IMG/VR virus record: IMGVR_UViG_3300018080_000139
Coordinates: 31,868 to 95,867 of that record
Length of the DNA stretch: 64,000 bases
Source of the DNA: a virus
Strand: one strand, 5' to 3'
Shown: positions 4,561 to 64,000 of the stretch, in pieces
Layout: every line of letters starts with the position of its first letter
Position numbering within the stretch: position 1 is the stretch's first letter
The notes under the pieces: model-generated
The model's database searches: none
Told to the model about the DNA's origin: nothing
The model's input: only the letters and a program-made list of their open reading frames with translations
Translations under genes and position numbers: made by a program

Positions 4561-5070
4561 ATGATGGAAGACTTTAAACCGATCTTTTTCGAAAGCGCGC
4601 GCCGAAGTCTGACGGAAGACTACAAAGCCGAGAATACCAAGAATTTCGGGCGTGTGATGAACCTCGGCGCGAGCTTGGCGGCCGATTTTCGGGGGATCGC
4701 AAACTTACCAGAGGTGGCCGCCGAAGACAAAGGAGACTATCTGCAGGCCGCGGAAAAGCTGAAGCGTGTGGCGGCCGCGGAAAGCGAGTTTATCTTGGCA
4801 TTGGAGAGGCTGATGGAGGTTCACGGGATTCTTGTGGAAGAAGAAGACGACTTGTTTCGCTTTTCGAACCCGATAAAGAAGGCTTTCGGTTATGGTGGAA
4901 AAGACGAGCGCCCGGTTTTTTTCCCCAAACGTAAGAAAATTCTCGAGCGCATACGTAAAGGCCGCGACAGGATGATGGCGGCTTTTGTGCAGGGTGTGAG
5001 GTCGTGGGCAAAAGAAAAATACGACAGGTATGAGGACCTCCGCCCGGCCCCCCCTGGAGGATGGAGATGA
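4561..5070 (+). CDS. Hypothetical helical protein
   Basis: 169 residues. Two adjacent ATGs (4561 and 4564) follow a GGGGATAG ribosome-binding site; either could be used. The sequence is alpha-helical and charged, with a Lys/Arg-rich stretch near residues 115-130 (FFPKRKKILERIRKGRD) that could bind nucleic acid or membrane. Its stop lies only 25 bp before the likely start of the patatin-like gene, and it belongs to the same + strand cassette. No family is recognised. Confidence 0.75.
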   Translation: MMEDFKPIFFESARRSLTEDYKAENTKNFGRVMNLGASLAADFRGIANLPEVAAEDKGDYLQAAEKLKRVAAAESEFILALERLMEVHGILVEEEDDLFRFSNPIKKAFGYGGKDERPVFFPKRKKILERIRKGRDRMMAAFVQGVRSWAKEKYDRYEDLRPAPPGGWR

Positions 5071-5095
5071 CACGGGAAGCTTTTCCGCGGCGGTG

Positions 5096-5962
5096 ATGGA
5101 GCCAGCCCCTCTCGTTTTCAGTGGTGGTGGCTCGAAAGTGCCAATCCATGTCGGAGCGCTGCAGGCGGTCGAAGACGTTGGAGTTGAAGTCTCCTCCTAC
5201 TTGGGGACATCGGCCGGCGCGATCGTGGCCGCCCTGGCGGCCGACGGGATGAAAGCGCGGGAAATGTGGTCTCTTGTTCGTACTCTCGACTTTTCGAAGT
5301 TTGTGAAGAGGACCTGGCCGGAAGTGGTCGCTAATTTTTTCTTCGGCCGCGGTCTCGTGTCCGGAGCGTATCGCCATGATTTTTTTCGGGAGTTGTTCGG
5401 CATCAAGACTATGGCGGACTTGCGAAATCTTAAGGTTTTCGGGCATTCGCTGGCGCGGCGGCGATGGGTGGAAATCTCGGCGACCTCGTACCCGGGGATG
5501 CCGGTTGCCTTGGCTTTGCAGATTTCCACGGCAATTCCGATCCTGTTCAGCCCCGTTGGCATTGGCAAGGTCTCTCGGAAGACAAAGCGGGAATTCGACC
5601 GGGATTGGCTGGTTGATGGAGGGGTCTCCAAGAATTTTCCGGTCGATCGCGCTGGCCGTCGCTTTGTCGGTCATCTGATAGACTCACCGGAAGGCCCGGA
5701 TTGGCAGGACATCTCTGTGCGCTCACTATTTCGCGAGACGTTTTCTCAGCTTGTGGGCGCCAACGCCGAGGAGTCTATCCGTAACGCCAGCCCGAATGGG
5801 CTCGTTGTCCGCTCGACTTATCGAAAATCCGTAACCGATTTTTCGGTGAGCGCGCAGGAAAAAGAAAATATGTTTGATCTCGGTTACGCCGGGATGTCTG
5901 AAAGCTTGAAAATATGGCTCAAGGAGGAGTGTTATGATAAAAGGCCCGCAGAAGCCCGGTGA
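5096..5962 (+). CDS. Patatin-like phospholipase
   Basis: 288 residues from ATG 5096. An upstream in-frame ATG at 5030 overlaps the previous gene and cannot be excluded; neither has a strong Shine-Dalgarno. The patatin signature is complete. A glycine-rich oxyanion-hole loop FSGGGSK lies at about residues 8-14, the nucleophile elbow G-T-S-A-G at 37-41 (Ser39), and the partner Asp in D-G-G at about 174-176. Patatin-family enzymes are Ser/Asp-dyad lipid acyl hydrolases that cleave membrane phospholipids. No signal peptide is seen, so it probably acts inside the cell or is carried by the virion. Its gene overlaps the next start by 29 bp. Possible roles are membrane attack at lysis or infection, or exclusion of other phages; the catalytic call is firm, the role is inference. 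Confidence 0.9.
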   Translation: MEPAPLVFSGGGSKVPIHVGALQAVEDVGVEVSSYLGTSAGAIVAALAADGMKAREMWSLVRTLDFSKFVKRTWPEVVANFFFGRGLVSGAYRHDFFRELFGIKTMADLRNLKVFGHSLARRRWVEISATSYPGMPVALALQISTAIPILFSPVGIGKVSRKTKREFDRDWLVDGGVSKNFPVDRAGRRFVGHLIDSPEGPDWQDISVRSLFRETFSQLVGANAEESIRNASPNGLVVRSTYRKSVTDFSVSAQEKENMFDLGYAGMSESLKIWLKEECYDKRPAEAR

Positions 5963-6789: not shown

Positions 6790-8304
6790 ATGCCCGAATT
6801 ATTATATCTCGACAAGTACGGGGAGAAGAAGACTCTCGAAGTCAAGGAGCGTGCGACAATCGGCACTTTCGACGACTGCGATGTGTGCTTGTCTTCCTCA
6901 GCGCTCGACGAAAGGCATGTTCTGATTTTCAGCGCGGAGTGTGGCTGGGAGGACGAATTTTCCGAGGCGGACGCCGGCAAGTACTTCGTGAAAAACGTGG
7001 GGTCCCGCCCTGTTTTCGTCCACCATGTAATCCGGAGAGCTAGCGAAGTGCTGGAGCCTGGAGCGAGATCAGGCCTGTCCGCAAAAGTTTCCATTTCGGT
7101 TGGGACTGCACGCGAGGGAGACCAGGTTACGGTCGTGTGGATGAATGCCGAAGCGGAATACGCCGACGAAGATTACCGGATTGTCCGGCTGAAAGCCAGC
7201 AGTGGAAAAGACGAGCTTCTCGATCTCGAGGTGCGAAGGCATCTCGAAAATTACTATCTGCGCTTGCGAGGGGTGGCCGCGAAGCCTGGGGATGTCGCGC
7301 GGGCGACGGCTCTTTTTCTGCGAGAGTCTTTCGACGTGTCCATGGCCGCCATCTATCGCCGGACCGGGCCGAAATGGAAGTCCGCGGCCGTGTCCCGGAG
7401 GCTGAAGAGCGATGAGTACGTACCGTCGACGACGATTTTCCGTCGGGCCATCGAGGAAAAGACGCCACTCCTCGTTCGTTTCGAAGACGGCGTGGTAAAA
7501 ATCGACGAAGAGGCCTCGACACCTTCGCTTTCCGTTGTGGCGTCGCCGGCAAAGCGCGCCGTACTAATCCCTCTCTTTCAGGGGGATAGCGTTTTCGGAA
7601 TGCTGTACTTGGACACGCGCGACGAGACCATCTTGACACAAAAGGACTATGACGTTCTGGTCCGGATGGTTCACCGCGGGGGGGTGGGAGCCGTTCTCGC
7701 CGGCTATCTCGCCGAGGACGCGGAGGCGAAGCAGTTTTTGCTTTTTCGGGATTCTCCACCGCGTGGTGAATACTGGCGTTACGTTTTCGCGGCGGAGAGG
7801 GCGCCTTACCCCCTTACGGGAGTTAAGGTTGACAAGGACCGCGGGATTATGCGCTTTCTTTTCGGACACGTTTCCGATAAGCTCTCTACGGTCTGCCGGG
7901 TCAAGAGCTTTTGCGCGGGGGCGATGGCCGCCGGCGTCGAGGATTTGCTCACCATCGCCACCAGGTACTCGGTTTCGATCGACGACTCCGTCGATCTGCT
8001 TAAAGCTGGGCTGTCGCACATAACAGTGGCTTTCCCGGATGAGGGGGATATACTCGACGACACGGACGCCGAGACGCGGACCGTTCGCGTCGGCCTTTTC
8101 GGGGACGTGTATGCCTACATGCGGAAAGACGGTAAGGTGTATGAGTTTCGAGACGACGAGGAAGGCTACAGGGATTTCGAATTCGCCGTCGGGGACTACT
8201 TGGTGATTTCTCTTCGCCGCATTCCCGATAGATTTCTCACCGATCGAGTCCGAGAGCTGAAAAAGCACAGTCGCGACTTCTTTTTGCTCGCAAGGGAGAG
8301 ATGA
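6790..8304 (+). CDS. FHA-GAF protein with PP2C/SpoIIE-like C-terminal domain
   Basis: 504 residues from ATG 6790 (an in-frame GTG at 6784 is possible). The N-terminal 90 residues look like an FHA phosphothreonine-binding domain: RATIGTFDDCDVCLSSSALD then RHVLIF matches the usual GR..D..L...SRRH pattern, with I-G-T in place of G-R. Residues about 130-310 look like a GAF sensor (FDVSMAAIYRR, then VLIPLFQGDSVFGMLYLDTR). The C-terminal 180 residues have the order of a SpoIIE/RsbU-type phosphatase (GHVSDK, TVRVGLFGDVYAYMRKDGK, VGDYLVISLRRIPD), but the metal-binding Asp residues are not all obvious, so it may be degenerate. The stop overlaps the kinase start (ATGA), making a two-gene signalling unit. 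Confidence 0.8.
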   Translation: MPELLYLDKYGEKKTLEVKERATIGTFDDCDVCLSSSALDERHVLIFSAECGWEDEFSEADAGKYFVKNVGSRPVFVHHVIRRASEVLEPGARSGLSAKVSISVGTAREGDQVTVVWMNAEAEYADEDYRIVRLKASSGKDELLDLEVRRHLENYYLRLRGVAAKPGDVARATALFLRESFDVSMAAIYRRTGPKWKSAAVSRRLKSDEYVPSTTIFRRAIEEKTPLLVRFEDGVVKIDEEASTPSLSVVASPAKRAVLIPLFQGDSVFGMLYLDTRDETILTQKDYDVLVRMVHRGGVGAVLAGYLAEDAEAKQFLLFRDSPPRGEYWRYVFAAERAPYPLTGVKVDKDRGIMRFLFGHVSDKLSTVCRVKSFCAGAMAAGVEDLLTIATRYSVSIDDSVDLLKAGLSHITVAFPDEGDILDDTDAETRTVRVGLFGDVYAYMRKDGKVYEFRDDEEGYRDFEFAVGDYLVISLRRIPDRFLTDRVRELKKHSRDFFLLARER

Positions 8305-9356
8305 TGCAGCCTACGCAGCAACCGGCTTTAGACGAGTTTCTGTCGACGGTAGACGCGATTGCTGGAGGAGACCACTCCCCGGACACGCTGCAAAAGATGT
8401 GCGTTCTGTGTTCGCCTGACTATGAGCCCACGCGCGAAGACAAGGTTCGATTGGGTGGCGAAGCGATTGTCCTAAAAGTATCAAATACTGTGCTTGATCG
8501 CGCAGAAGTATTAAAAATACCCCGACGCGCACTGGTCGAGAATAAGAGGCTTCTGGCACGGTATTTTCGGGGAATGCAACTGCAAAGCCGTGTCCACCGC
8601 TACGTTCGCGCCGGAGTCCCAGAAGTGTACGCAGCACGATATAATGCCCCGTTTGTCAGCATGGAGTGGATTCGCGGGCTGGCACTACTCCGCTTCCTCG
8701 AGCAAGCGGGCCAGCGAGAGTCCGCCCGGTTTTTTGTTAGCATCTTGGACTTGGTAGCCAGCCTGCATGATCGAATGGTGATTCATCGGGATCTTACACC
8801 CTCTAATATACTCGTGGGGGTGGATCCTGTAACGGAAGCTCTTTGCCCTTACCTTTTGGATTTCGGCCTCGCAAAGCGCGTGCAAGGCGAATCAACGCTT
8901 ACGGGAATTGGAGCAAAGCTGGGGACGAACGGCTGGGCGAGTCCGGACCAGCTCGATGATGCCGCGCGTGCTGATTTCCTGGACGACGTGTACACGGCGG
9001 GGCGTTTGCTCTACGTGATGGCTACTTATGCCACGACAAAAGCCTGTCCGCGGAAAGATCGCGATTATGACGAGCGGCTTTTACCTGGGGAGTGGCTTCC
9101 AATTTTTCAGGCGGCGACCGCTCCACGAGAGGCTCGCTACCAATCTATCAGGGAGCTTCGGGCTGCCGTCGCTCGTGTCGTGGGGATCGAGGACGTAAGT
9201 ATTGTTAGGGTGCCCGACCCCATTTCGGTTTTCTCAGAAGATCTACGGTCGACCAGAAAGATTCGGAAAGTTTCGCCCCCTCCCGAGAGTACGGAAGGGG
9301 ATGACCTCGTAGACCTTTTCGTAAAAGCGGTAAGGTCTGCAATTTATAACTCGTAG
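8301..9356 (+). CDS. Hanks-type Ser/Thr protein kinase
   Basis: 351 residues; ATG 8301 overlaps the previous stop. The kinase core is intact from the ATP lysine onward: VLKIP (Lys72), catalytic loop HRDLTPSNIL (Asp164, Asn169), DFGLAK (187-192), an activation segment ending GTNGWASPDQL in place of APE, and a DVYTAGRLLYVM helix F. The glycine loop is reduced to RLGGEAIVLK. The last 70 residues form a short soluble tail; there is no transmembrane segment or PASTA repeat, so it is a cytosolic kinase. Paired with an FHA/phosphatase-like gene, it probably phosphorylates host or virion proteins on Ser/Thr. T7 gp0.7 is a precedent for a phage kinase but is unrelated in context. Confidence 0.92.
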   Translation: MMQPTQQPALDEFLSTVDAIAGGDHSPDTLQKMCVLCSPDYEPTREDKVRLGGEAIVLKVSNTVLDRAEVLKIPRRALVENKRLLARYFRGMQLQSRVHRYVRAGVPEVYAARYNAPFVSMEWIRGLALLRFLEQAGQRESARFFVSILDLVASLHDRMVIHRDLTPSNILVGVDPVTEALCPYLLDFGLAKRVQGESTLTGIGAKLGTNGWASPDQLDDAARADFLDDVYTAGRLLYVMATYATTKACPRKDRDYDERLLPGEWLPIFQAATAPREARYQSIRELRAAVARVVGIEDVSIVRVPDPISVFSEDLRSTRKIRKVSPPPESTEGDDLVDLFVKAVRSAIYNS

Positions 9357-9368
9357 GAGGGACGGCAA

Positions 9369-9977
9369 GTGACGATAGGAAATTACGGTTTGGAATTTAC
9401 TTTCACCAATGAAACGGACGGGATCGTGTCCGCCAATCAGCTCGGGATCCCCGGCCTGGCCCCGGGAGAGACGGTAACGATTTATGAAAACAAGTTGCGC
9501 CCGGGGCATTTCGGCATGGTCGATGGGGGGAAACTCTCGGTGTCTCCGGAGCTTCCCCCCGACCTCGTGACGCGCGCGGCGTCGCTGAACTGGCAGGACT
9601 CGGAGTGGAGGAAACTCCTCGAGATGCTGGCCGCCAGCAAAGACAGCCTGGCTTTCGCTTCGGACGCACCGGCCACCGCCGACGTCGACGCCGAAGTCGA
9701 GGTGGAGCTTTTCCTGCTCGACGCGGCGGGAGTACCGATCCTGCTCGACTCCGAAGAGGAAGTGGACATCAGCGTGGACACCGGGCTGATCGTGGACGTG
9801 TCCGGTTACGTGTCCGGAGACTTGAACGACGTCGGGCCGATTCGCGCGAAGTGCGCGTCCGGGCTTATCACGATCACCGTGACCGACGACGCGGCCGAAG
9901 CGCAAACGATTTCGCTCGCAAACCCGTCGACCGCCGGACTGACCGTCACCGACACGCACGTCGTAACTTACAGTTAA
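9369..9977 (+). CDS. Putative virion (capsid decoration-like) protein
   Basis: 202 residues from GTG 9369 with TAGGAGGG upstream. It is acidic and beta-rich. The C-terminal 95 residues have an Ig-like/bacterial adhesin feel (VELFLLDAAGVP, VDISVDTGLIVDVSG, LITITVTDD, HVVTYS). Such domains are common in phage head decoration or fibre proteins. It begins the run of small virion-type genes upstream of the prohead protease. The function is inferred from position and fold flavour, not from a named family. Confidence 0.75.
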   Translation: MTIGNYGLEFTFTNETDGIVSANQLGIPGLAPGETVTIYENKLRPGHFGMVDGGKLSVSPELPPDLVTRAASLNWQDSEWRKLLEMLAASKDSLAFASDAPATADVDAEVEVELFLLDAAGVPILLDSEEEVDISVDTGLIVDVSGYVSGDLNDVGPIRAKCASGLITITVTDDAAEAQTISLANPSTAGLTVTDTHVVTYS

Positions 9978-10345: not shown

Positions 10346-10627
10346 ATGAGTAGCAGCTTGACATATTACTACTACCTACAGGCCTTCCCGTACCCCCGCG
10401 CGGGATCGTATCCTCGGAGACCGCGAGACGAGGCGTTCGAGGAGAAAGTGGATCGTCCAATGTCCCCCAGCGCCAGAATGATAAATGAGAATTTGGCGAC
10501 GACCAAGGGGGCTATGCTGTGGTGGTATTGGGGGCTCGGTGCTTATCCGTACCCGACCGCCGGGCAATACAACAAGAAGAAAAAAAAGAAGCGAAAGGGG
10601 ATAAGCCCATGGGACTCGCTAACGTAA
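10346..10627 (+). CDS. Small Tyr/Pro-rich basic protein
   Basis: 93 residues from ATG 10346, four bases after the previous stop. The composition is odd: YYYY near the N-terminus, two AxPYP motifs (AFPYPRAGSYPRRP and AYPYPTAGQYNKK), and a run of lysines at residues 77-83. The two PYP segments look like an internal duplication. Its end overlaps the next start by 19 bp. A basic, aromatic peptide of this kind could line the head or bind DNA; no homologue is recognised. Confidence 0.6.
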   Translation: MSSSLTYYYYLQAFPYPRAGSYPRRPRDEAFEEKVDRPMSPSARMINENLATTKGAMLWWYWGLGAYPYPTAGQYNKKKKKKRKGISPWDSLT

Positions 10628-11019
10628 AAGTGGGGGGCTTCGCGTTCAAGGCGGACGTGGAGTTCAACGCGGACCCGCGCCAGAATATCGCATACATCTT
10701 GAAGATTTTGGGCGAGCCGGCGAGCAAGCTGTATCCGTCAGTGCCTTCGAACTCAGCCCCCCCTCCCGGACGCGGTTTGCAGTTCGACGTCCGCCCGGAG
10801 AGTGGGGACCCGATTCCCGGCGGCGTGGGCTTGCGCGCTGTCGGAATTCGCGAAGTCGTTACGGCTCCGCCGGGGGCGCTGGGGATTAACGATCCTTTCC
10901 CGGAGGATTACGGGACCCTCGAGGTTTTCGATCCGAACGACTCGGGCTACGAAGCCCCGTATCCTAATGACAGGTTTCCTTCAACCCCTCCGGAGCTTCC
11001 GGAAAAGACGTTTCCGTAA
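10609..11019 (+). CDS. Hypothetical Pro-rich protein
   Basis: 136 residues; ATG 10609 has AAAGGGGAT upstream and sits inside the end of the previous gene. The first 50 residues are ordered (VGGFAFKADVEFNADPRQN); the remainder is rich in Pro, Gly and Asp with a repetitive P-Y/F-P flavour (FPEDYG, YEAPYPNDRFP) that echoes the preceding gene. Probably a minor virion component. No known domain was recognised. Confidence 0.68.
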   Translation: MGLANVKVGGFAFKADVEFNADPRQNIAYILKILGEPASKLYPSVPSNSAPPPGRGLQFDVRPESGDPIPGGVGLRAVGIREVVTAPPGALGINDPFPEDYGTLEVFDPNDSGYEAPYPNDRFPSTPPELPEKTFP

Positions 11020-11563: not shown

Positions 11564-13381
11564 GTGATGACTACGACAACGCCGAAATGGTTTCTCTACG
11601 ACTCGGTTCTACTGGATTACTCCATTACCGAGAGCGCTGAAGGGCTCTTGATTTTGCGCGGGAAGGTGCAGCACGCCGACATAAAAAACGACAACAACCG
11701 GGTGTATCGTTACTCCGTGCTGGACAAGGTTTTGAAAGCGCAAAAGGTAAGAGACCGGCTGCGTCGGCGTCTCATGGTCGGGGAGCTGGAGCATCCTGAA
11801 GACGGCATCACGAAATTCTATCGAGTTTCGCATCTGGTGACGGATCTCCGTTGGGGAGAGGGAAAGGTCGTCTTGGGCTCCTTCGAGATTTTCGATGACG
11901 TTCCGCATGGAATAATCGTGGCGCGCCTGATCCGTCGGGGGGTTCCTGTGGGAGCCTCCACGCGCGGGAAGGGGACGTCTCACGAGCAGGATGACGTCGA
12001 ATTCGTGGACGACAACTATGATCTGGAGACGGTCGACATTGTCTACAACCCTTCGACTCCGGGAGCGTACCCCAAGCCCGTGAAAGTTGCCATGTCCGGG
12101 GAACTTCCGACCTGGGAGCGAGATGAGGAGAAGACATCCAGAAAACTCGTGAGCCTGGCCGATGATGCGGGTCGGGTTCGCGTGGCCGCTTCACGCGGAA
12201 AAGCTAGCGATGAGGAGATACGGCGTTGTGAGAGGGACCTCTCGGGGGTGTCCGGACATGGCGACGCGCTCCTCGAGAAGTTTTGTGAGTTAATCAACAG
12301 GGACTTGAAGGAGGCCAGAAAAATGGCGAAAAGCAAGTTGACCGTCCCCGTCCAAGCGGTGAGCCAGATGATAGAGGCGATCCGGTCAGACGAGGAGGAA
12401 TACAAACCCCCCACCGAGGAGCGAAAGAAGCGGCGTAAGACCGAGCAGGAGGGGGACGAGTACGAAGAGCGGAAAAAGCGCCGGCGCAAATCGGAGCAGG
12501 CCGAATACGAAGACGAGTACGAAGAGCAAGATGACGAAGAAGGCTTGGACGACGAGGAGTACGAAGAGCGCAAGCGGCGTCGGAAAATGGAGGCGAAGAA
12601 GAAACGCCAGCGCAAATCGGAGCAGGCCGAATACGAAGACGAGTATGAGGAGCAAGATGACGAAGAAGGCTTGGACGACGAGGACGAGTACGAGGAGCAG
12701 GACGAGCCCGAAGAGGAGTACGAAGAGCAGGACGACGAAGAAGAAAAGCCCGCTCCTCCTCCCCCCGTCGAAAAGAAAAGCTTTCTCTCTCGCAAGGAGA
12801 GGAAATGCGAATCCGCCGGCGTGCTGAGAAAGGCTCTCGTCCGCGAGCGCAAGCTCAAAAACGCGCTCGTCGAGCGCGCGCGTCAGCTTCGCGCGGCAAA
12901 CTCCGTGTTGGCGTCGAAGCTCGACAGCTCTGTGGACTTGATCGCAAAAGTGGTCGAGCGGGTGGAGGCGGAGAAAAAGCGCCGTATCCTCTCGCGGGCG
13001 ACGGCCGAAAACCCGGAGATGGGAAATCTGCTCCCGGTGCTGGAGCGGTGCAGCGCACGCGAACTCGAAGAGGCTGTCCGTTTGGTGCAGGAAAGCAGGG
13101 AAACCAAAATGCGGGAAGAGGAAAGCCGTCGTCAGGAGGAAGCAGCTCGACGTACCCCGCCTTCGCGCAGAAGGTACACACCGCCGCCGGCCAGAACGCG
13201 AGAACTGATGGTCGAATCTCAGGATCTCCCCGCCGAGGACCTTCCGAAAAAGCAAGTGAAGGAAAACAAACTGTCTTTGGGAAGGATTCTCGAGGAGAGC
13301 CGCCACGGGGCGGATAGCGACTATTCGCGAATGGCCGATAACCTGATCGACGGCGGGCACCTTCCGCCCGGATGGATGTAG
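11564..13381 (+). CDS. Prohead maturation protease fused to scaffold (T4 gp21-like)
   Basis: 605 residues, start at ATG 11564 or 11567. The first 180 residues resemble the T4 gp21 / peptidase S77 prohead protease: GELEHPED carries the catalytic His, and GVPVGASTRGKG carries the nucleophile Ser, followed by YDLETVDIVYNPSTPGA. This protease cleaves scaffold and capsid proteins during head maturation. Residues 254-605 are an extreme charged region: Lys/Arg/Glu repeats at 12410-12760, then a coiled-coil and a C-terminal tail. This is what a scaffold domain looks like. An internal in-frame start at 12323 with a strong ribosome-binding site would produce the scaffold alone. The gene is directly upstream of the major capsid gene, as expected. 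Confidence 0.87.
   Translation: MMTTTTPKWFLYDSVLLDYSITESAEGLLILRGKVQHADIKNDNNRVYRYSVLDKVLKAQKVRDRLRRRLMVGELEHPEDGITKFYRVSHLVTDLRWGEGKVVLGSFEIFDDVPHGIIVARLIRRGVPVGASTRGKGTSHEQDDVEFVDDNYDLETVDIVYNPSTPGAYPKPVKVAMSGELPTWERDEEKTSRKLVSLADDAGRVRVAASRGKASDEEIRRCERDLSGVSGHGDALLEKFCELINRDLKEARKMAKSKLTVPVQAVSQMIEAIRSDEEEYKPPTEERKKRRKTEQEGDEYEERKKRRRKSEQAEYEDEYEEQDDEEGLDDEEYEERKRRRKMEAKKKRQRKSEQAEYEDEYEEQDDEEGLDDEDEYEEQDEPEEEYEEQDDEEEKPAPPPPVEKKSFLSRKERKCESAGVLRKALVRERKLKNALVERARQLRAANSVLASKLDSSVDLIAKVVERVEAEKKRRILSRATAENPEMGNLLPVLERCSARELEEAVRLVQESRETKMREEESRRQEEAARRTPPSRRRYTPPPARTRELMVESQDLPAEDLPKKQVKENKLSLGRILEESRHGADSDYSRMADNLIDGGHLPPGWM
12323..13381 (+). CDS. Nested scaffold protein (internal in-frame start)
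   Basis: ATG 12323 (MAKSKLTVPVQAV...) is in frame with the protease-scaffold gene and is preceded at 12308-12314 by AAGGAGG with an 8-base spacing, the best ribosome-binding site in that gene. The product would be 352 residues: a helical head, the acidic/basic repeat, and a coiled-coil tail, without the protease domain. A nested scaffold made from the 3' part of a protease gene is known in lambda (C/Nu3). Here the call rests on the start signal and the domain border. Most scaffold is needed in excess over protease, which this arrangement would supply. Confidence 0.65.
   Translation: MAKSKLTVPVQAVSQMIEAIRSDEEEYKPPTEERKKRRKTEQEGDEYEERKKRRRKSEQAEYEDEYEEQDDEEGLDDEEYEERKRRRKMEAKKKRQRKSEQAEYEDEYEEQDDEEGLDDEDEYEEQDEPEEEYEEQDDEEEKPAPPPPVEKKSFLSRKERKCESAGVLRKALVRERKLKNALVERARQLRAANSVLASKLDSSVDLIAKVVERVEAEKKRRILSRATAENPEMGNLLPVLERCSARELEEAVRLVQESRETKMREEESRRQEEAARRTPPSRRRYTPPPARTRELMVESQDLPAEDLPKKQVKENKLSLGRILEESRHGADSDYSRMADNLIDGGHLPPGWM
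12485..12684 (+). repeat. 126-bp-period direct repeat inside the scaffold coding region
   Basis: A segment of about 74 bases beginning CGCAAATCGGAGCAGGCCGA occurs at 12485-12558 and again at 12611-12684, nearly identical, encoding RKSEQAEYEDEYEEQDDEE twice. Around it are shorter E-Y-E-E and K-R-R-R units. The repeat keeps frame (period 126 = 42 codons), so it looks like an in-frame duplication that lengthened the scaffold. Confidence 0.85.
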
Positions 13382-13419
13382 ACGACGCGCTACAAAGCGC
13401 AAAACGAAAGGAGAAAAGC

Positions 13420-14856
13420 ATGTTGATGCCACAGATAGAGGGGGTCCCCCCCATTGCCAACCTGGCGGAAAATCTCCAGATGGGCGGCCAGACAATCCTG
13501 GAACGCACCCAGGAGAAGGGAGCCAAGCTCGCCGCCGAGGATTGGAGTCACCTTTGCCGCCGCCTCCCGAAAAACATGCGGTGGCGAACCGCCATCCTGC
13601 TGGAAAACACGAAGTCTTACTTCAAGAACTTCAACGAGACCGTGCGCCAGCAAGCAATCGGGAACTTCGACAAGTTCGCCTTCCCGCTGATCCGGGCCAT
13701 ATACCCGAACCTGGTGGCCCAGGAACTCGTTTCCGTACAGCCCATGACCGGGCCCATCTCCCTGATTTTCTATCTCGACGCTTTGTACGGCTCGAACAAG
13801 GGGAGCGTCCAGGCGGGACAGGCCGCGTTCGATGCGGTCTCCGGCCCCAACGAAAACCCGTCTTACAGCTCCGAAGACGTCGAGCTGGAGCCGCTCGGCG
13901 CCGGCGACGACGCGGAGACGAACTTCACGGGAAACGTAGGATACACCCCCATATACCAGGGGACTGTGCAGGTGGCCGCCGGCGATGTCGTTGGTTGGGA
14001 CGATGGGGACGGCAACATAACCGGAACCGGGATTGCGGCGGGAAGCATCGACTACGACACCGGAGCCTACGACATCACTTTCTCTGTGGCCCCGGTGGGC
14101 GGGACGATCATCACGGCCTCGTACCGTTTCGACATGGAAGGCTCGGAACTGGTGCCGCAAATGGACATCGGGATGGTCTCCACCCCTGTCGTTGCCCAGC
14201 ACCACAAGCTGAGAATCCGCTGGTCGATCGAGGCTCAGGCTTCGGCCAGATCCCTCCACGGCCTGGACGCGCAAAGTGAACTCATGGCATTCACGGCGGA
14301 GGAACTCAAATTCGAAATCGACCGCCGTGTCATAAGGGACTTGTACAACATCGCCCTCGCCGGACACGTTTTCTGGCAGATCACCCAGCCGGCCGGCGTG
14401 AGCTTTACCGAACACAAGCTGTCTTACATCGACGCTTTGATCGAGCTGGGCAACTTGATTTTCCGTGCAACTCGGCGTGGGAACATGAATTTCATCGTGA
14501 CGTCCGTGGAGGTGGCAAATATCATCGAAAGCCTCCCCACTTTCGTCGCCGAGCCGAACGCTTTTTCGGTCCAGAGGACGGCGGGCGTGGTCAAGGTCGG
14601 CGTGCTCAACAACAGGTGGACCGTCTACAAAGACCCCTTCCTCGGTAACGGACAGCCGAACCCGAGAGTGTTTTTCGGCGGCTACAAAGGCGGGAGCTGG
14701 ATGGACGCCGGCTATGTCTTCGCTCCGTATCTCCCCCTGTACACGACTCCTACGATCTTTTTGGATGACTTCTTGGGGAGGAAAGGTTTGGGCATCGCCT
14801 ACGGAAAAAAGACGATCAACCCCAGATTTTACGGCACCGGCGAAGTCACCGCGTGA
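13420..14856 (+). CDS. Major capsid protein (T4 gp23-like, HK97 fold)
   Basis: 478 residues from ATG 13420 (AAAGGAG upstream; an in-frame ATG at 13372 overlaps the protease gene and lacks a good site). The stretch FPLIRAIYPNLVAQELVSVQ and PMTGPISLIFYLDALYG is characteristic of gp23-type capsid proteins, and WSIEAQASARSLHGLDAQSE fits the later part of the fold. Residues about 170-240 form an extra beta domain (GTVQVAAGD...SIDYDTGAYDITFSVAP) that looks inserted and probably projects from the capsid. The N-terminal 60 residues would be removed by the neighbouring protease. The gene is followed by a GC hairpin. Confidence 0.93.
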   Translation: MLMPQIEGVPPIANLAENLQMGGQTILERTQEKGAKLAAEDWSHLCRRLPKNMRWRTAILLENTKSYFKNFNETVRQQAIGNFDKFAFPLIRAIYPNLVAQELVSVQPMTGPISLIFYLDALYGSNKGSVQAGQAAFDAVSGPNENPSYSSEDVELEPLGAGDDAETNFTGNVGYTPIYQGTVQVAAGDVVGWDDGDGNITGTGIAAGSIDYDTGAYDITFSVAPVGGTIITASYRFDMEGSELVPQMDIGMVSTPVVAQHHKLRIRWSIEAQASARSLHGLDAQSELMAFTAEELKFEIDRRVIRDLYNIALAGHVFWQITQPAGVSFTEHKLSYIDALIELGNLIFRATRRGNMNFIVTSVEVANIIESLPTFVAEPNAFSVQRTAGVVKVGVLNNRWTVYKDPFLGNGQPNPRVFFGGYKGGSWMDAGYVFAPYLPLYTTPTIFLDDFLGRKGLGIAYGKKTINPRFYGTGEVTA

Positions 14857-41007: not shown

Positions 41008-41503
41008 GCAGATTTTTGCTCAGAGCATTCAAAACTCGTCCCTGCTGAAAAACGAGGTGGACACGGCCTTGTACTTGTGGGGCAAGATAACCGGCTTCGA
41101 CGCCGAGCCGACGTCTATGGCTCTTCGCGCCTCTCCGCGCCTGGTGGCTGTGGCCCGGCATCTCGCCGACACGGTCGAACTGCGTGTGGAGGAGAAAGAG
41201 GAGAGCCTTGCCAGCTACCGGGAAAAAATCGAGCGCGACGCGCGCCGGCAACTCGCTGTTGCCCTCAAGGGGGAGAAAGTCACCCCCGATATGGTTGAGC
41301 GGGCCGTGAAAGCCAATACTGACTTGGTCTTCGAGGTGACAGCCTTGAGAAAAGTGAAGGCCGATAGCGCTATTTGCCGCGCGCTCGCAGCCGGAGCCGA
41401 GGCCTACGTTCAGGCCGCGGTCGAGCTGGCAAAGCGAGGAGAAGAGAAAACTCCGCGCGAGGAGGAGGAGCTGCAAACGTGTTCGACATCCGAAAGCGTT
41501 TAG
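41000..41503 (+). CDS. Hypothetical helical protein upstream of the peptidase
   Basis: 167 residues; ATG 41000 (or ATG 41004 out of frame, not used). Helical and charged, with a coiled-coil-like middle (LRVEEKEESLASYREKIERD). It overlaps the peptidase start by 25 bp. It might be a small structural or DNA-associated protein. No domain recognised. Confidence 0.72.
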   Translation: MDEQIFAQSIQNSSLLKNEVDTALYLWGKITGFDAEPTSMALRASPRLVAVARHLADTVELRVEEKEESLASYREKIERDARRQLAVALKGEKVTPDMVERAVKANTDLVFEVTALRKVKADSAICRALAAGAEAYVQAAVELAKRGEEKTPREEEELQTCSTSESV

Positions 41504-42243
41504 GTTGGAAGCCGGAACCCCCTGACCGGAGGGACTTTCGTCTGGGCGCCCACCCCTTTTTCAGAAAAGTGGGGAAGCTCCCACGCAAGGTCTCATTGCG
41601 GGAGTGTATGCCCGATGTGCGCGACCAGGGGGAGACCAATTCTTGCACAGGCTTTGCGATCGCCGCCCTGCGGGGGGCCCTCGAGCTGCAGGACTCCCCG
41701 GAGAAAAAAGACGTCCTGGCCCCCCCGCTATCCCCGCTTTTCGTGTACTACCATGAGCGCGTGAAGGAGGGGACCTGGCCGGCCGATTGTGGGGCGTATA
41801 TTCGGACAGGAATGAAAGTTCTGCACAAGCTGGGGTGCTCACAGGAAAGCCGGTTTCCTTTTTCACCGGACTCAATTTCGGCTGGGGTCCCAAAAGTCGA
41901 CATCGAGGCCGACCGGGGCGCCATCACTGCTTACCTCCGGGTCTCGACTATAGACGAAATGCGCGTAGCTATCGCCAGGCGCCTCCCTGTCGTGGGGGGT
42001 TTGACGATTTATCGGAACTGGGAGCGCCCCCACGTTTGGAGGACCGGACAGATTCCGGACCCTTCCGGGAGGGCGATCGGCGGTCATGCCGTCGTCGCCA
42101 TGGGCTACGACGACGAGAAGGAAGTTTTCGAGTGGCAAAACTCGTGGGGGAAAGAGTGGGGGGACAGCGGGTTTTTTTGGACTTCCTACGACTATCCGAA
42201 TCATAGTGGGTGCGATTTCTGGGTAGTGCTGAAATGGAGGTGA
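41479..42243 (+). CDS. Papain-like (C1 family) cysteine peptidase
   Basis: 254 residues from GTG 41479, with GGAGGAGGAG just upstream; earlier in-frame starts would only add a low-complexity basic stretch. Catalytic residues of the papain fold are all present: oxyanion Gln and nucleophile Cys in DQGETNSCTGFAIA, His in GGHAVVAMGYDD, and Asn in EWQNSWGKEWGDSGFF. There is no signal peptide or propeptide, so it acts in the cytosol or from the virion. C1A peptidases are rare in tailed phages. It could process virion proteins, degrade host proteins, or act in lysis; no other endolysin is visible in the window. Confidence 0.92.
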   Translation: MFDIRKRLGWKPEPPDRRDFRLGAHPFFRKVGKLPRKVSLRECMPDVRDQGETNSCTGFAIAALRGALELQDSPEKKDVLAPPLSPLFVYYHERVKEGTWPADCGAYIRTGMKVLHKLGCSQESRFPFSPDSISAGVPKVDIEADRGAITAYLRVSTIDEMRVAIARRLPVVGGLTIYRNWERPHVWRTGQIPDPSGRAIGGHAVVAMGYDDEKEVFEWQNSWGKEWGDSGFFWTSYDYPNHSGCDFWVVLKWR

Positions 42244-42246
42244 TTT

Positions 42247-42642
42247 TTGTTCGTTGCACGTAAGTACCCCTGGAAGGATGCAGAGAGGAACGCGGCCGCC
42301 AAACGGCTCCGTGAATCCCTCGAAGAGATGCCAAGTTATGTCGAAAAAGAGATCGAGGCTTACCTTGCCAGTCGGGGCTTGAAAGTGACCGAGCGAAGGC
42401 ATGTCCTTCGTGTGTGTGAGGCTCTCCTCAAAAACGAGCCGTTTACCCGATCTTCGACGCGGCGGGGTCGATTCCTGGACGGTCTGGCAAAAGTACTCGT
42501 GCGCGACGGGGCCCGGCGCTTTTTGAATACCTTCGCGGGGAGTGGGTGGCGATATTCGGCCATCTCTGATGACCCTCTGGGTTACATCTTGTCGAATCGA
42601 AAAACCGGCTTTGTCTACCATGGGAGGAAGGTGAAGCGATGA
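42247..42642 (+). CDS. Hypothetical basic protein
   Basis: 131 residues, TTG start at 42247 following GGAGGTGA. Helical and basic with a Arg-rich centre (RSSTRRGRFLDGLAKVLVRD). It overlaps the next gene by 4 bp. The fold suggests a DNA- or RNA-binding helper near the packaging genes. No family recognised. Confidence 0.7.
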   Translation: MFVARKYPWKDAERNAAAKRLRESLEEMPSYVEKEIEAYLASRGLKVTERRHVLRVCEALLKNEPFTRSSTRRGRFLDGLAKVLVRDGARRFLNTFAGSGWRYSAISDDPLGYILSNRKTGFVYHGRKVKR

Positions 42643-43019
42643 CGACCACAGCGCAAGACTTGTCGAGCAACAAATTTTCAACGGCTTACGAGGTGGAGTT
42701 GTTCACGCTGTTGCTCGTACATTATGGCGAGTACACGCTCATACCCGAGCTAGTGCGTATCTTCGGGCCTCAGGGGGCCCTCGATTTCTGTGAGTGTTTC
42801 GCCGGCGTTACGATCGAAGTGCCGAAAGAAAACACGGTATTCCGGGCGGCCCGCGATGCCGTTGTTTTTTCTTGTATGGAGCAGGCGCATAACAAGGACT
42901 CCGAGGCGGAAAGGCTGGCGAGCTGGCTCGAGTACAGTGTTTCAGAAGTGCATGAAGTCTACGAGAAAGTCAAGAACCTGGAGAGAATCCAATGGGAAAA
43001 GGACGAAGACAAAGGGTAG
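42639..43019 (+). CDS. Hypothetical acidic helical protein
   Basis: 126 residues; GGGAGGAAGG before ATG 42639. Resembles a small helical regulator: STAYEVELFTLLLVHYGEYT, and a Cys-containing FCECFAG. It sits two genes ahead of the terminase and overlaps its neighbours by 4 and 28 bp, so translation is coupled through this stretch. No family recognised. Confidence 0.7.
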   Translation: MTTTAQDLSSNKFSTAYEVELFTLLLVHYGEYTLIPELVRIFGPQGALDFCECFAGVTIEVPKENTVFRAARDAVVFSCMEQAHNKDSEAERLASWLEYSVSEVHEVYEKVKNLERIQWEKDEDKG

Positions 43020-61399: not shown

Positions 61400-61428
61400 T
61401 TGTGTTGGCACGCCTTTTGTGGTATAAT
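61400..61428 (+). promoter_or_regulatory. Extended -10 promoter for the excisionase-like gene
   Basis: TTGTGT (61400-61405), 17-base spacer, TGG-TATAAT with consensus -10 TATAAT at 61423-61428. The -35 is poor but the -10 is perfect and extended (T-G-N). The transcript would start near 61435 and enter a 60-base leader. Confidence 0.75.
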
Positions 61429-61457: not shown

Positions 61458-61482
61458 GCCCCCCTTCCCTCGGGGGGCTTTT
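61458..61482 (+). promoter_or_regulatory. Terminator-like leader hairpin (attenuator candidate)
   Basis: GCCCCCC (61458-61464), loop TTCCCTC, GGGGGGC (61472-61478), then TTTT. It sits between the promoter and the ribosome-binding site of the excisionase-like gene. A nine-codon ORF from ATG 61455 (MAPLPSGGF) runs through the hairpin, so translation could decide whether transcription continues. Confidence 0.5.
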
Positions 61483-61496
61483 AGGAGGGGAGAGCC

Positions 61497-61706
61497 GTGA
61501 GGAAATACAACCTGTCAGAGGCCGCCAAGTACCTCGGCGTGACCGATCGGACCGTCCACCGGCGCATTCGCGCGGGGGATTTCCCGGCCGGCCGGGTGAT
61601 CGGGACGATCCGCACAAAGGCGGGGACACTACAACAGCGTGAGTGGACCGAGGACGAGCTAAAAACCGTCGAGAGGCGCACGCCAGGACGCCCCAAGAAG
61701 GATTGA
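61497..61706 (+). CDS. Excisionase-like HTH protein
   Basis: 69 residues from GTG 61497 with TAGGAGGGG. Winged HTH of the Xis/AlpA type: YNLSEAAKYLGVTDRTVHRR, IRAGDFPAGRVIGTIR. A basic C-terminal tail (ERRTPGRPKKD) should grip the DNA backbone. Divergent from the XRE repressor. It may act as Cro-like switch, activator of the promoter region to its right, or directionality factor; no integrase is visible in the window. Confidence 0.78.
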   Translation: MRKYNLSEAAKYLGVTDRTVHRRIRAGDFPAGRVIGTIRTKAGTLQQREWTEDELKTVERRTPGRPKKD

Positions 61707-61945
61707 CAAAGTTTGTCATACGTATGACGTATTTTGTCACACTGGCGTAAAGCTTATTATGTAGGCTTTGCGTGTCGCCACAAGAGCAAAAATCAAAAAA
61801 TCGTATGACAAACTTTGTCACCTGTGATTTTTTTTCTTGCAGGCTTACATGCCAAAAACCCACCCCCAGAAAAAACTAAGCACCCTTTAGAGTCCAAATA
61901 ACATGGCGTACAGCGCTTAGGCAAAAAAAATGTCATACGTATGAC
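61704..61945 (+). repeat. Array of palindromic operators
   Basis: Two palindromes recur. TGACAAA-N-TTTGTCA is at 61704-61718 and again at 61806-61820, the second copy being the inverse of the first. GTCATACGTATGAC is at 61715-61728 (overlapping the first) and at 61932-61945. The half-site TTTGTCATACG is shared. The last copy sits a few bases ahead of the sigma54-type promoter. Spacing suits an activator binding far upstream and a factor near the promoter. Confidence 0.75.
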
Positions 61946-61949
61946 GTTT

Positions 61950-61965
61950 TTGGCACGCAGATTGC
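61950..61965 (+). promoter_or_regulatory. Sigma54-type (-24/-12) promoter
   Basis: TTGGCACG (61950-61957), four bases, TTGC (61962-61965). The invariant GG and GC are separated by exactly 10 bases, as required by RpoN. Transcription would start near 61977 and reach the membrane-protein gene at 62227. Palindromes upstream could bind an enhancer-binding protein. A match of this quality is unlikely by chance in one window, but no experimental support exists. Confidence 0.65.
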
Positions 61966-62226
61966 GCATAGAATACAGCGCTCTTTGATAATTATATACG
62001 CGCGACGCCGGGGGCCATGAGCCAGATCCCGGCGGGCTGTCCTGAGCCCCGGTCCGGGGCGCGCACGCTTACGGGTTTGCAAGGAGAGTCAGAGTCAAAG
62101 ACCGAGCGCGGGCGAGAATCCCGCGCGCTACCGGGCAGCCGCTTTTGCGGGGCGTCGATGCCGCGAATCGAATTCGCCGCCCGGTTTTCATGCTTGTTCG
62201 TTCCTACTATCTGAAAGGGGTTATCC
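61966..62226 (+). other. Long GC-rich leader without a convincing gene
   Basis: About 260 bases between the sigma54-type promoter and ATG 62227. It is rich in G/C and contains several possible stems (for example GCCCCGGTCCGGGGC near 62045-62060 and GAGCGCGGG/CCCGCGCGC near 62100-62130). A 65-codon frame at 62017-62214 has no ribosome-binding site. It may be a regulatory leader. I see no tRNA. Confidence 0.4.
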
Positions 62227-62451
62227 ATGGAAACTATATTCTTCGTTCTCGGTTATGTCCTTCGCACCGTAGCACAAGACACTTTGCTCGCCGCGGCTTA
62301 CACTGGAATCCTCGTCTTCAGCTCTTGGATTCTGATTCTGGCCTTGCGTTCTCCGGAAAACGCACAGCCCGAAGAGATGGCCGGTTGTGTGTGCCGTCTC
62401 TTCCCGATGCTGGGTTTTGTTTTATCCTGGGTCCTGTGGATTTTGGTTTAG
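62227..62451 (+). CDS. Two-helix small membrane protein
   Basis: 74 residues; AAAGGGG precedes ATG 62227. Hydrophobic segments at residues about 20-40 (LLAAAYTGILVFSSWILILA) and 58-74 (MLGFVLSWVLWILV) with Cys residues between. First gene behind the sigma54-type promoter. A superinfection or takeover membrane protein is plausible. No family recognised. Confidence 0.7.
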   Translation: METIFFVLGYVLRTVAQDTLLAAAYTGILVFSSWILILALRSPENAQPEEMAGCVCRLFPMLGFVLSWVLWILV

Positions 62452-62461
62452 GAGTTATGCC

Positions 62462-62776
62462 GTGAGATGCAGCTTCATCGCGGAAGCCATGCTGGAGAGC
62501 ATGGAAGCTGAAATCAGGGAACATAAGGATTTTAAAGCTATGATGCGGCTCGAGGGGGCTCTCCTCGAGCTGCAGGAGGACGGCGACGGGTGCGGGATCG
62601 TCCTCGACGTCGCGATAAGGTACGCCGGGAAAGACGGGGTGGTTTTCGAGGCTTGGAGGTACGACGGGGCCTACTACCTGGACTTGCACTTGTTCGACGA
62701 GTTGTTAGAGGCCTGGAGATACGAGCGCATTCCCGCGGAGGAGCGGAGGCGTCTGGAGTATCGCCATGACGCCTGA
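62462..62776 (+). CDS. Hypothetical protein
   Basis: 104 residues from GTG 62462, with TAGGAG upstream; an in-frame ATG at 62489 is less well placed. The alpha-helical N-terminus (AEAMLESMEAEIREHKDFKA) is followed by beta strands (GIVLDVAIRYAGKDGVVFEA) and a C-terminal helix. Overlaps the next gene by 11 bp. Confidence 0.68.
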   Translation: MRCSFIAEAMLESMEAEIREHKDFKAMMRLEGALLELQEDGDGCGIVLDVAIRYAGKDGVVFEAWRYDGAYYLDLHLFDELLEAWRYERIPAEERRRLEYRHDA

Positions 62777-63005
62777 CGAGCGGCGGGCTCGCCGCGAGTA
62801 CTGGGAAAGGGTTGAACGGGAGGACCGGAGGCATCGTCGGAAGATGAGAGCCCGTCTCAAGGCCCACGGCTGGCACTGCTACGGCCGGTCGTGGTTCGCC
62901 CCGAAGGGTTTCTGGTTGCCGGGCCGCCACCCGGGACCCCTCTCTCTCGAGGCCGCTTACAATTTTTCCCACCACCAGGACGTCCCCCGCACGGGGGGAA
63001 GGTAG
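62766..63005 (+). CDS. Small basic protein
   Basis: 79 residues from ATG 62766 (GGAG upstream), starting inside the previous gene. Very basic N-terminal helix (RRARREYWERVEREDRRHRR) then aromatic/Gly-rich part. Possibly nucleic acid binding. Followed by a GC hairpin (GGCCCCC-TCC-GGGGGGCC). Confidence 0.68.
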   Translation: MTPDERRARREYWERVEREDRRHRRKMRARLKAHGWHCYGRSWFAPKGFWLPGRHPGPLSLEAAYNFSHHQDVPRTGGR

Positions 63006-63097
63006 AAGCTGGCCCCCTCCGGGGGGCCGACGGCTTGTAGTGCCGTTAATACACCATAAAACCAAAACCAACCAACCATCACAAAAGGGGTAAAACC

Positions 63098-63157
63098 ATG
63101 AAAAACCAAACCTGCAACTGCTCCAGGCAATTTTGGAGCAACGAGGATGTGGCATGA
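63098..63157 (+). CDS. 19-residue leader peptide coupled to the next gene
   Basis: ATG 63098 has AAAAGGGG upstream; it encodes MKNQTCNCSRQFWSNEDVA. Its TGA (63155-63157) overlaps the ATG of the following gene as ATGA, the usual sign of translational coupling. It contains C-N-C. It may regulate the next gene or be a tiny peptide. The A/C-rich 63055-63100 upstream is unstructured. Confidence 0.62.
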   Translation: MKNQTCNCSRQFWSNEDVA

Positions 63158-64000
63158 AGGATTACTGGCAAAACGAGGCCGTCCGCGCGACGGCCGAAAC
63201 GATCATTTTCGCGCATCGCGCGGCGGCCCCAGTTGAATCGCTCGACCAGCGGGCCCTCGGCGTCCTCGCCGAGAAAGGGTTTATTTCCCTGCGTCAGTAT
63301 CGGGAGTCCGATACGGGTGCCGAGTACCAGATCGCGCGGGCCGAAGACCTCTCCGGACTTCGCGACGTCATCGTATACCCTCGCATCGAAATCTTGGAAG
63401 TCTCCGACAATGGAGATTCCACTTGGCTGGAGGAGCAGGAGGACGGCCGCTTCGACCTCCGGGACTCCAGGATAGCCGGAGCCTTTCGCATTCGGCTGCG
63501 AAAGGACGGCCAAATTCCTGGAAACCGGAAACTTCCGAGTGAATACGAGGGGGAGCTGAGAAACCTCCTCGCCCGGCACTGGAAAACGAAGGACCCTGAA
63601 AGAGTAAGGGGACACTACTGCGACGGGAGCGACGCCATGCGCGTCGAGTGCCCCAGGTGCGGGGGGACCGGCCGCCATTCGTACTGCTCCCTCTTTCGTG
63701 ACGTTTGTTTCCAGTGCGAAGGCCGGCGGACCGTCCTCGTTCGTTGGAAGTCTTACGCCGAGACGAACGCGCGCCGGCGTAAATCTCTTCTCAACCGGAT
63801 TGAGAAAGCCATCGCCCTCGCCTCCGAGGAGCGCAAGGGCTTTCTGGGCGAAGTCGACCGAATTATAACTTTCGAAGCCGAAGTGATCGAGATCAAGGAA
63901 ATTGAGCCGATCGAGGGACGGCCCCCGGTGAAGCTCGTGCGGGTCTCCTCGATCCCTACAGGGCACCGGGCTGGCTTCTTCGCCCGCGCCGATGCCGCGA
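63154..64000 (+). CDS. DnaJ-type zinc-finger protein, 3' end outside window
   Basis: Open from ATG 63154 to the end of the window with no stop: at least 282 residues. Residues about 160-190 carry VECPRCGGTGRHSYCS and VCFQCEGRRTVLV, a CxxCxGxG-like zinc module of the DnaJ type. The preceding half is a mixed domain (IVYPRIEILEVSDNGDSTWL), and after the zinc part come charged helices and IKEIEPIEGRPP. A host-chaperone-linked or regulatory role is possible; no J-domain is visible in the part present. Confidence 0.7.
   Translation, partial: MKDYWQNEAVRATAETIIFAHRAAAPVESLDQRALGVLAEKGFISLRQYRESDTGAEYQIARAEDLSGLRDVIVYPRIEILEVSDNGDSTWLEEQEDGRFDLRDSRIAGAFRIRLRKDGQIPGNRKLPSEYEGELRNLLARHWKTKDPERVRGHYCDGSDAMRVECPRCGGTGRHSYCSLFRDVCFQCEGRRTVLVRWKSYAETNARRRKSLLNRIEKAIALASEERKGFLGEVDRIITFEAEVIEIKEIEPIEGRPPVKLVRVSSIPTGHRAGFFARADAA

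Follow-up and report, generated by a model that had tools for sequence, protein, structure and literature searches.

A palindrome array and a possible sigma54-type promoter in a control region of a T4-like phage

Related control systems and the setting of the locus

The described systems closest to the locus reported here are the sigma54 (RpoN) promoters that work with enhancer-binding proteins, the Pm promoter of phage Mu and the stoperators of Cluster A mycobacteriophages, which are repeated short sites to which a phage regulator binds. In Mu Pm, the Mor site is 16 bp long, with two 5-bp repeats and a 6-bp spacer, and is centred at -43.5, while the promoter has a -10 element, lacks a -35 element and carries an A/T-rich stretch upstream (PMC4390567). 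The promoter-like element P2 studied here shares with sigma54 promoters a GG-N10-GC motif that is nearly identical to pspA (TGGCACGCAAATTGT) at -24, together with distal palindromes at -164 to -266. Unlike those promoters, it is weaker at -11, has a palindrome at -38, lies in a phage context and comes without a detected activator gene. The likeness to Mu Pm is one of layout (a 16-bp 5-6-5 dyad near -43, a -10 without a -35 and A/T-rich DNA upstream); P2 differs from it in its additional distal operators and in a weakly supported Mor-like protein. A phage regulator may likewise bind the repeated short sites, but in contrast to Cluster A stoperators these are symmetrical and confined to one control region, and dispersed copies were met only in an unrelated phage (G001/G002).

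The window, the whole stretch of 64,000 nucleotides analysed, covers bases 31868-95867 of a 95,867-bp (95.9-kb) virus contig; since its end (64000) is also the contig end, the phage genome may be incomplete. The contig is a T4-like phage whose genes include those for a major capsid protein of T4 type, a portal, a prohead protease and a sheath. Among the closest relatives of the capsid are Listeria, Bacillus and Streptococcus phages, with 32-36% identity. In viral contigs, the capsid protein matched an identical contig of 27 kb as well as more distant contigs, and the stretches of these that were retrieved lie outside the control-region gap. A family A DNA polymerase with a fused uracil-DNA glycosylase (UDG) domain is encoded at contig 6898-9564, and its nearest relatives are in SPO1-type phages. 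A patatin-like phospholipase (5030-5962) and a papain-family protease (41479-42243) lie among the structural genes. Contig ~436-507 looks like a tRNA 3' half, with the GGTTCGATTCC arm and an acceptor stem, but ARAGORN makes no call there, and no tRNA was called in the search.

The control region is a 520-bp non-coding gap, A+T-rich at its left end, with a small excisionase-like HTH gene on one side and a rightward operon on the other (Table 1). The HTH_17 protein, the 63133-63999 protein, the SSB and the DnaB helicase had no match among viral contigs, nor had the control-region DNA in the phage collection. Structure prediction for the HTH_17 protein was of low confidence and taught nothing reliable, and a MotA search of the contig gave no match, as did its control. 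The 5' leader of the operon folds no more stably than shuffles and belongs to no Rfam family, and a structured RNA leader was rejected on these grounds. The earlier note had proposed a phosphorylation-linked circuit built on a phage kinase and an FHA/GAF protein. The Ser/Thr protein kinase of PknB type at 8301-9356 is real; the circuit is unsupported, as the GAF match is weak, no FHA domain is reported and nothing was found to tie either protein to P2.

Table 1. Features of the control region and of related sites and genes (window positions unless marked contig).
Feature	Position	Strand	Remark
Cro/CI-type HTH_3 protein, 67 aa	61003-61206	-	Divergent; candidate regulator
P1, TTGGCACG-CCTT-TTGT (element TTGGCACGCCTTTTGT, 61405-61420) with TATAAT (61423-61428)	61405-61428	+	
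P1 as matrix match	61406	+	Score 11.8; non-coding
HTH_17/excisionase-type winged-helix protein, 69 aa	61497-61706	+	Candidate regulator; the operators follow directly
Operator O1, TGACAAAGTTTGTCA	61704-61718		Exact palindrome; first three bases are the HTH gene stop codon
Dyad 1, TGTCATACGTATGACG (core 14-mer GTCATACGTATGAC, 61715-61728)	61714-61729		Identical to dyad 2
Operator O2, TGACGTATTTTGTCA	61725-61739		Imperfect copy; 21 bp from O1
Operator O3, TGACAAACTTTGTCA	61806-61820		Exact palindrome; ~-164 from predicted sigma54 start
A-tract, CAAAAAAAA	61922-61930	+	UP-element-like; adjoins dyad 2 on its upstream side
Dyad 2, TGTCATACGTATGACG, TGTCA-TACGTA-TGACG	61931-61946		Centre 61938.5
P2, -24/-12-like element TTGGCACG-CAGA-TTGC (full site TTGGCACGCAGATTGC)	61950-61965	+	Matrix score 13.7
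P2 as matrix match	61951	+	Score 13.7; non-coding
TAGAAT, possible sigma70 -10 hexamer of P2	61969-61974	+	5/6 consensus
5' leader of rightward operon, ~250 nt	61977-62226	+	G+C-rich
Rightward operon, four genes of unknown function	62227-64000	+	Continues past contig end
-24/-12 match	57717	-	Score 15.6; non-coding
-24/-12 match	contig 13487	-	Score 17.4; non-coding; best on contig; within published-site range
Weakly Mor/late-activator-like protein, 126 aa	42639-43019	+	Candidate class II activator

The palindrome array

Both the control region in the gap and its operator array are real. The palindromes at 61704-61728 and 61806-61820, to which attention had been drawn before, are exact and lie far beyond chance: the contig has two copies each of the 15-mer and the 14-mer, and 40 shuffles have none. 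The stretches 61704-61722 and 61802-61820 form a perfect 19-nt inverted repeat, O3 with its flank inverting the O1 block. Every site of the array can be read as TGTCA half-sites, whose spacing is irregular. Dyad 2, the imperfect O2 and the P1 element at 61405-61420 are additions to the earlier note. Dyad 2, whose outer base pair is a non-complementary T/G, lies only 3 bp upstream of the -24 element of P2, with its centre at ~-38.5 from the predicted sigma54 start and ~-42.5 from the predicted sigma70 start. No match to the composite of palindrome and -24 element was found in 84,980 genomes, and the literature searched held nothing direct on the palindrome.

The palindrome was also followed into other viruses. 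Viral contigs searched for TGTCATACGTATGACG gave nine stretches, spread over a handful of contigs. Four other loci carry the palindrome within unrelated sequence that looks conserved and is probably coding. G001 (IMGVR_UViG_3300048835_000016) and G002, which are 99% alike, are one phage, unrelated to the T4-like contig, with 9-10 dispersed TGTCATACGTATGACA palindromes that mostly stand right before ribosome-binding sites; they recall stoperators and may act in that way or as RNA hairpins. One of them sits inside a terminator-like hairpin. A divergent non-coding region of ~600 bp in G001 (10398-10979) carries eight -24/-12 matches on both strands, six of which score 20-23, as good as real sites, and one abuts the same palindrome. 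The region also holds two TTATCCACA DnaA-box-like sequences. The palindrome was the only criterion by which this second phage was chosen, so the co-occurrence of palindrome and -24/-12 sites favours a link between them. In viral contigs the scan gave G001, G002 and G003 once more. No sigma54 activator (PF00158), Mor-like or HTH_3 protein was detectable on the G001 and G002 contigs. That the TGTCATACGTATGACR dyads and their binding protein form a module common to unrelated phages, which at -24/-12 promoters would control the sigma54 holoenzyme of the host with no AAA+ activator encoded by the phage, is a doubtful idea that we rate as quite improbable.

P2 and the -24/-12-like sites of the contig

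P2 (61950-61974) is most likely the regulated promoter of the 62227 operon. The TTGGCACG-N4-TTGC motif with exact GG/GC spacing that had been described at this place was found again: GG and GC (or G-Y) are 10 bp apart, the element agrees with TGGCAYR-N4-TTGY, and it is the sole exact TTGGCACG-N4-TTGC in the contig. Taking C at 61965 as -12, the predicted sigma54 start falls at 61977, in agreement with the start that the earlier note had placed there. No -35 element lies 16-18 bp from TAGAAT.

For scoring, a matrix was built from 29 published Salmonella intergenic sigma54 sites (PMC3844500, Table 3); on their own matrix these sites score 16.5-24.4. Four of the five best matches on the contig are non-coding, where ~1 would be expected (non-coding DNA is 12.8% of the contig; P~0.01), and column-permuted matrices gave P = 0.005-0.018. 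All four are directed at downstream genes. In shuffled non-coding DNA, 0.39 sites were expected at score 12 against 3 found, a number reached by 1 of 200 shuffles. The consensus YTGGCACGN4TTGCW, with GG/GC fixed and at most one mismatch, occurs twice in the contig against 0.25 times in shuffles; looser thresholds gave no excess over shuffles. In ~31 kb of non-coding DNA from other viral loci, mostly T4-like and some unrelated, no site reached score 10, with the proviso that these loci were given a coarser gene calling, under which P1 and the 13487 site count as coding. The enrichment of -24/-12-like sites in the contig's non-coding DNA is modest but measurable.

P1 ends in TTGT at -12, a variant found in published sites including pspA and pspG (PMC3844500), and its TATAAT is preceded by a TG and, 17 bp upstream, by TTGTGT. 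P1 and P2 share TTGGCACGC-N3-TTG and are alike over ~45 nt, so that a single promoter may have been duplicated and the two may not be independent. The two whole gaps that hold them are no more similar than shuffles. P1 and P2 have the same -24 to -12 spacing but place the -10-like hexamer at different distances. Terminator-like hairpins occur before P1 (61371-61397) and in the leader that separates P1 from the HTH gene (61458-61483), and attenuation there is possible. The best site of the contig, at 13487 on the minus strand, lies in a 1.1-kb non-coding divergent gap (contig 12911-14002) and leads into a perfect hairpin with 14-bp arms (contig 13438-13468); with several further hairpins in the same gap, a non-coding RNA is possible.

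Weighing the explanations

A sigma54-type promoter is the best explanation of P2 and is slightly favoured, as a tentative choice. From the observed motifs, positions, enrichment and gene context we infer that sigma54 might be used, which roles the sites might have and what the regulator might be. TTGGCACG-N4-TTGC would be a genuine -24/-12 element, the control regions of the contig would hold about four of these, and P2 would drive the rightward operon starting at 62227. A phage or host regulator would bind the TGTCA half-site array, with the distal sites at 61704-61739 and 61806-61820 (~-164 to -266) acting as enhancer-like sites. Dyad 2 overlaps the polymerase footprint at its edge and would have a modulating or repressing role. 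The activator ATPase would be supplied by the host or by a part of the phage genome that the contig lacks.

The sigma54 promoter proposed in the earlier note is partly supported: it gains from the site enrichment and from the dense sites in the palindrome-bearing phage, and loses on other counts. P2 scores lower than any of the published sites used, it carries a G instead of A/T at -11, and neither a sigma54 gene nor a PF00158 activator gene is present on the possibly incomplete contig. The search for an AAA+ activator that had been suggested came out empty on this contig, while that for further -24/-12 sites added three non-coding ones (contig 13487, window 57717 and P1). The claim that the palindromes stand at suitable activator distances fits the distal sites; the nearest, dyad 2, is at a class II or repressor position, misplaced for an enhancer at -38.5, where it would overlap polymerase. 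Against sigma54 also count the possible duplication of P1 and P2 and the -24 half TTTTTGGCAC, which is in register with the operator half TTTTGTCAC and may be a decayed copy of it.

The main rival, possible but on balance unlikely, is a sigma70 promoter at P2 that depends on an activator, as Mu Pm does; it accounts for the sequence nearly as well as sigma54. Here a phage activator dimer on dyad 2 would replace the -35 contact and recruit polymerase to TAGAAT, the A-tract would be a UP-like element, and TTGGCACG...TTGC would lie in the spacer, either incidental or as an extra contact. All four Pm features are present, dyad 2 with its 5-6-5 inverted repeats over 16 bp being centred at ~-42.5 if the start is at ~61981, as predicted from TAGAAT, with no -35 and with the A-tract upstream. 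The chance of a -10 as good as TAGAAT within 3 positions is ~0.025, and a TATTAT likewise lies 33.5 bp downstream of the centre of dyad 1. The candidate activator encoded at 42639-43019 resembles Mor and late activators weakly (PHROG 836, E=4e-4; Pfam Mor, E=0.006) and below the curated cut-off; no PDB or phage relative was found for it, and its low-confidence structure model is uninformative. A Pm-type promoter also leaves unexplained the TTGGCACGC-N3-TTG common to P1 and P2 and the other non-coding -24/-12 sites.

It is improbable that the Cro/CI-type or the excisionase-type protein shuts P2 off from the TGTCA half-sites in the manner of an early-gene switch, the -24-like sequence then being the decayed operator half with which it aligns. 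Two small HTH regulators flank the region, O1 overlaps the stop codon of one of them, and the other, of Cro/CI type, is encoded adjacent to it, as would suit an immunity operator; the palindromes before ribosome-binding sites in the unrelated phage point the same way. T4-like phages, however, are normally lytic, no tyrosine integrase (PF00589) is encoded on the possibly incomplete contig, and no repressor homologue is common to it and the palindrome-rich phage. Repression would go with either sigma factor, so that taken alone it gives no account of the promoter. A replication origin is highly improbable: the region is A+T-rich (~60%, peak at 61700-61900), with repeated palindromes, divergence of two gene blocks and a local GC-skew minimum (61471), but skew here tracks gene direction, the global minimum (contig 13726) is in the other divergent gap, the P2 gap has no DnaA box, and the irregular half-site spacing is unlike that of iterons.

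Returning to the sigma54-type promoter, the literature searched gave nothing direct and no well-characterised phage that runs its own genes from such promoters. Should P2 and the sites like it prove real, gene expression in the T4-like phage would hinge on activators of the host that are driven by ATP and sense nutrients or stress. If P2 is instead of the Pm type, Mu-type activator promoters would be extended to a T4-like phage.
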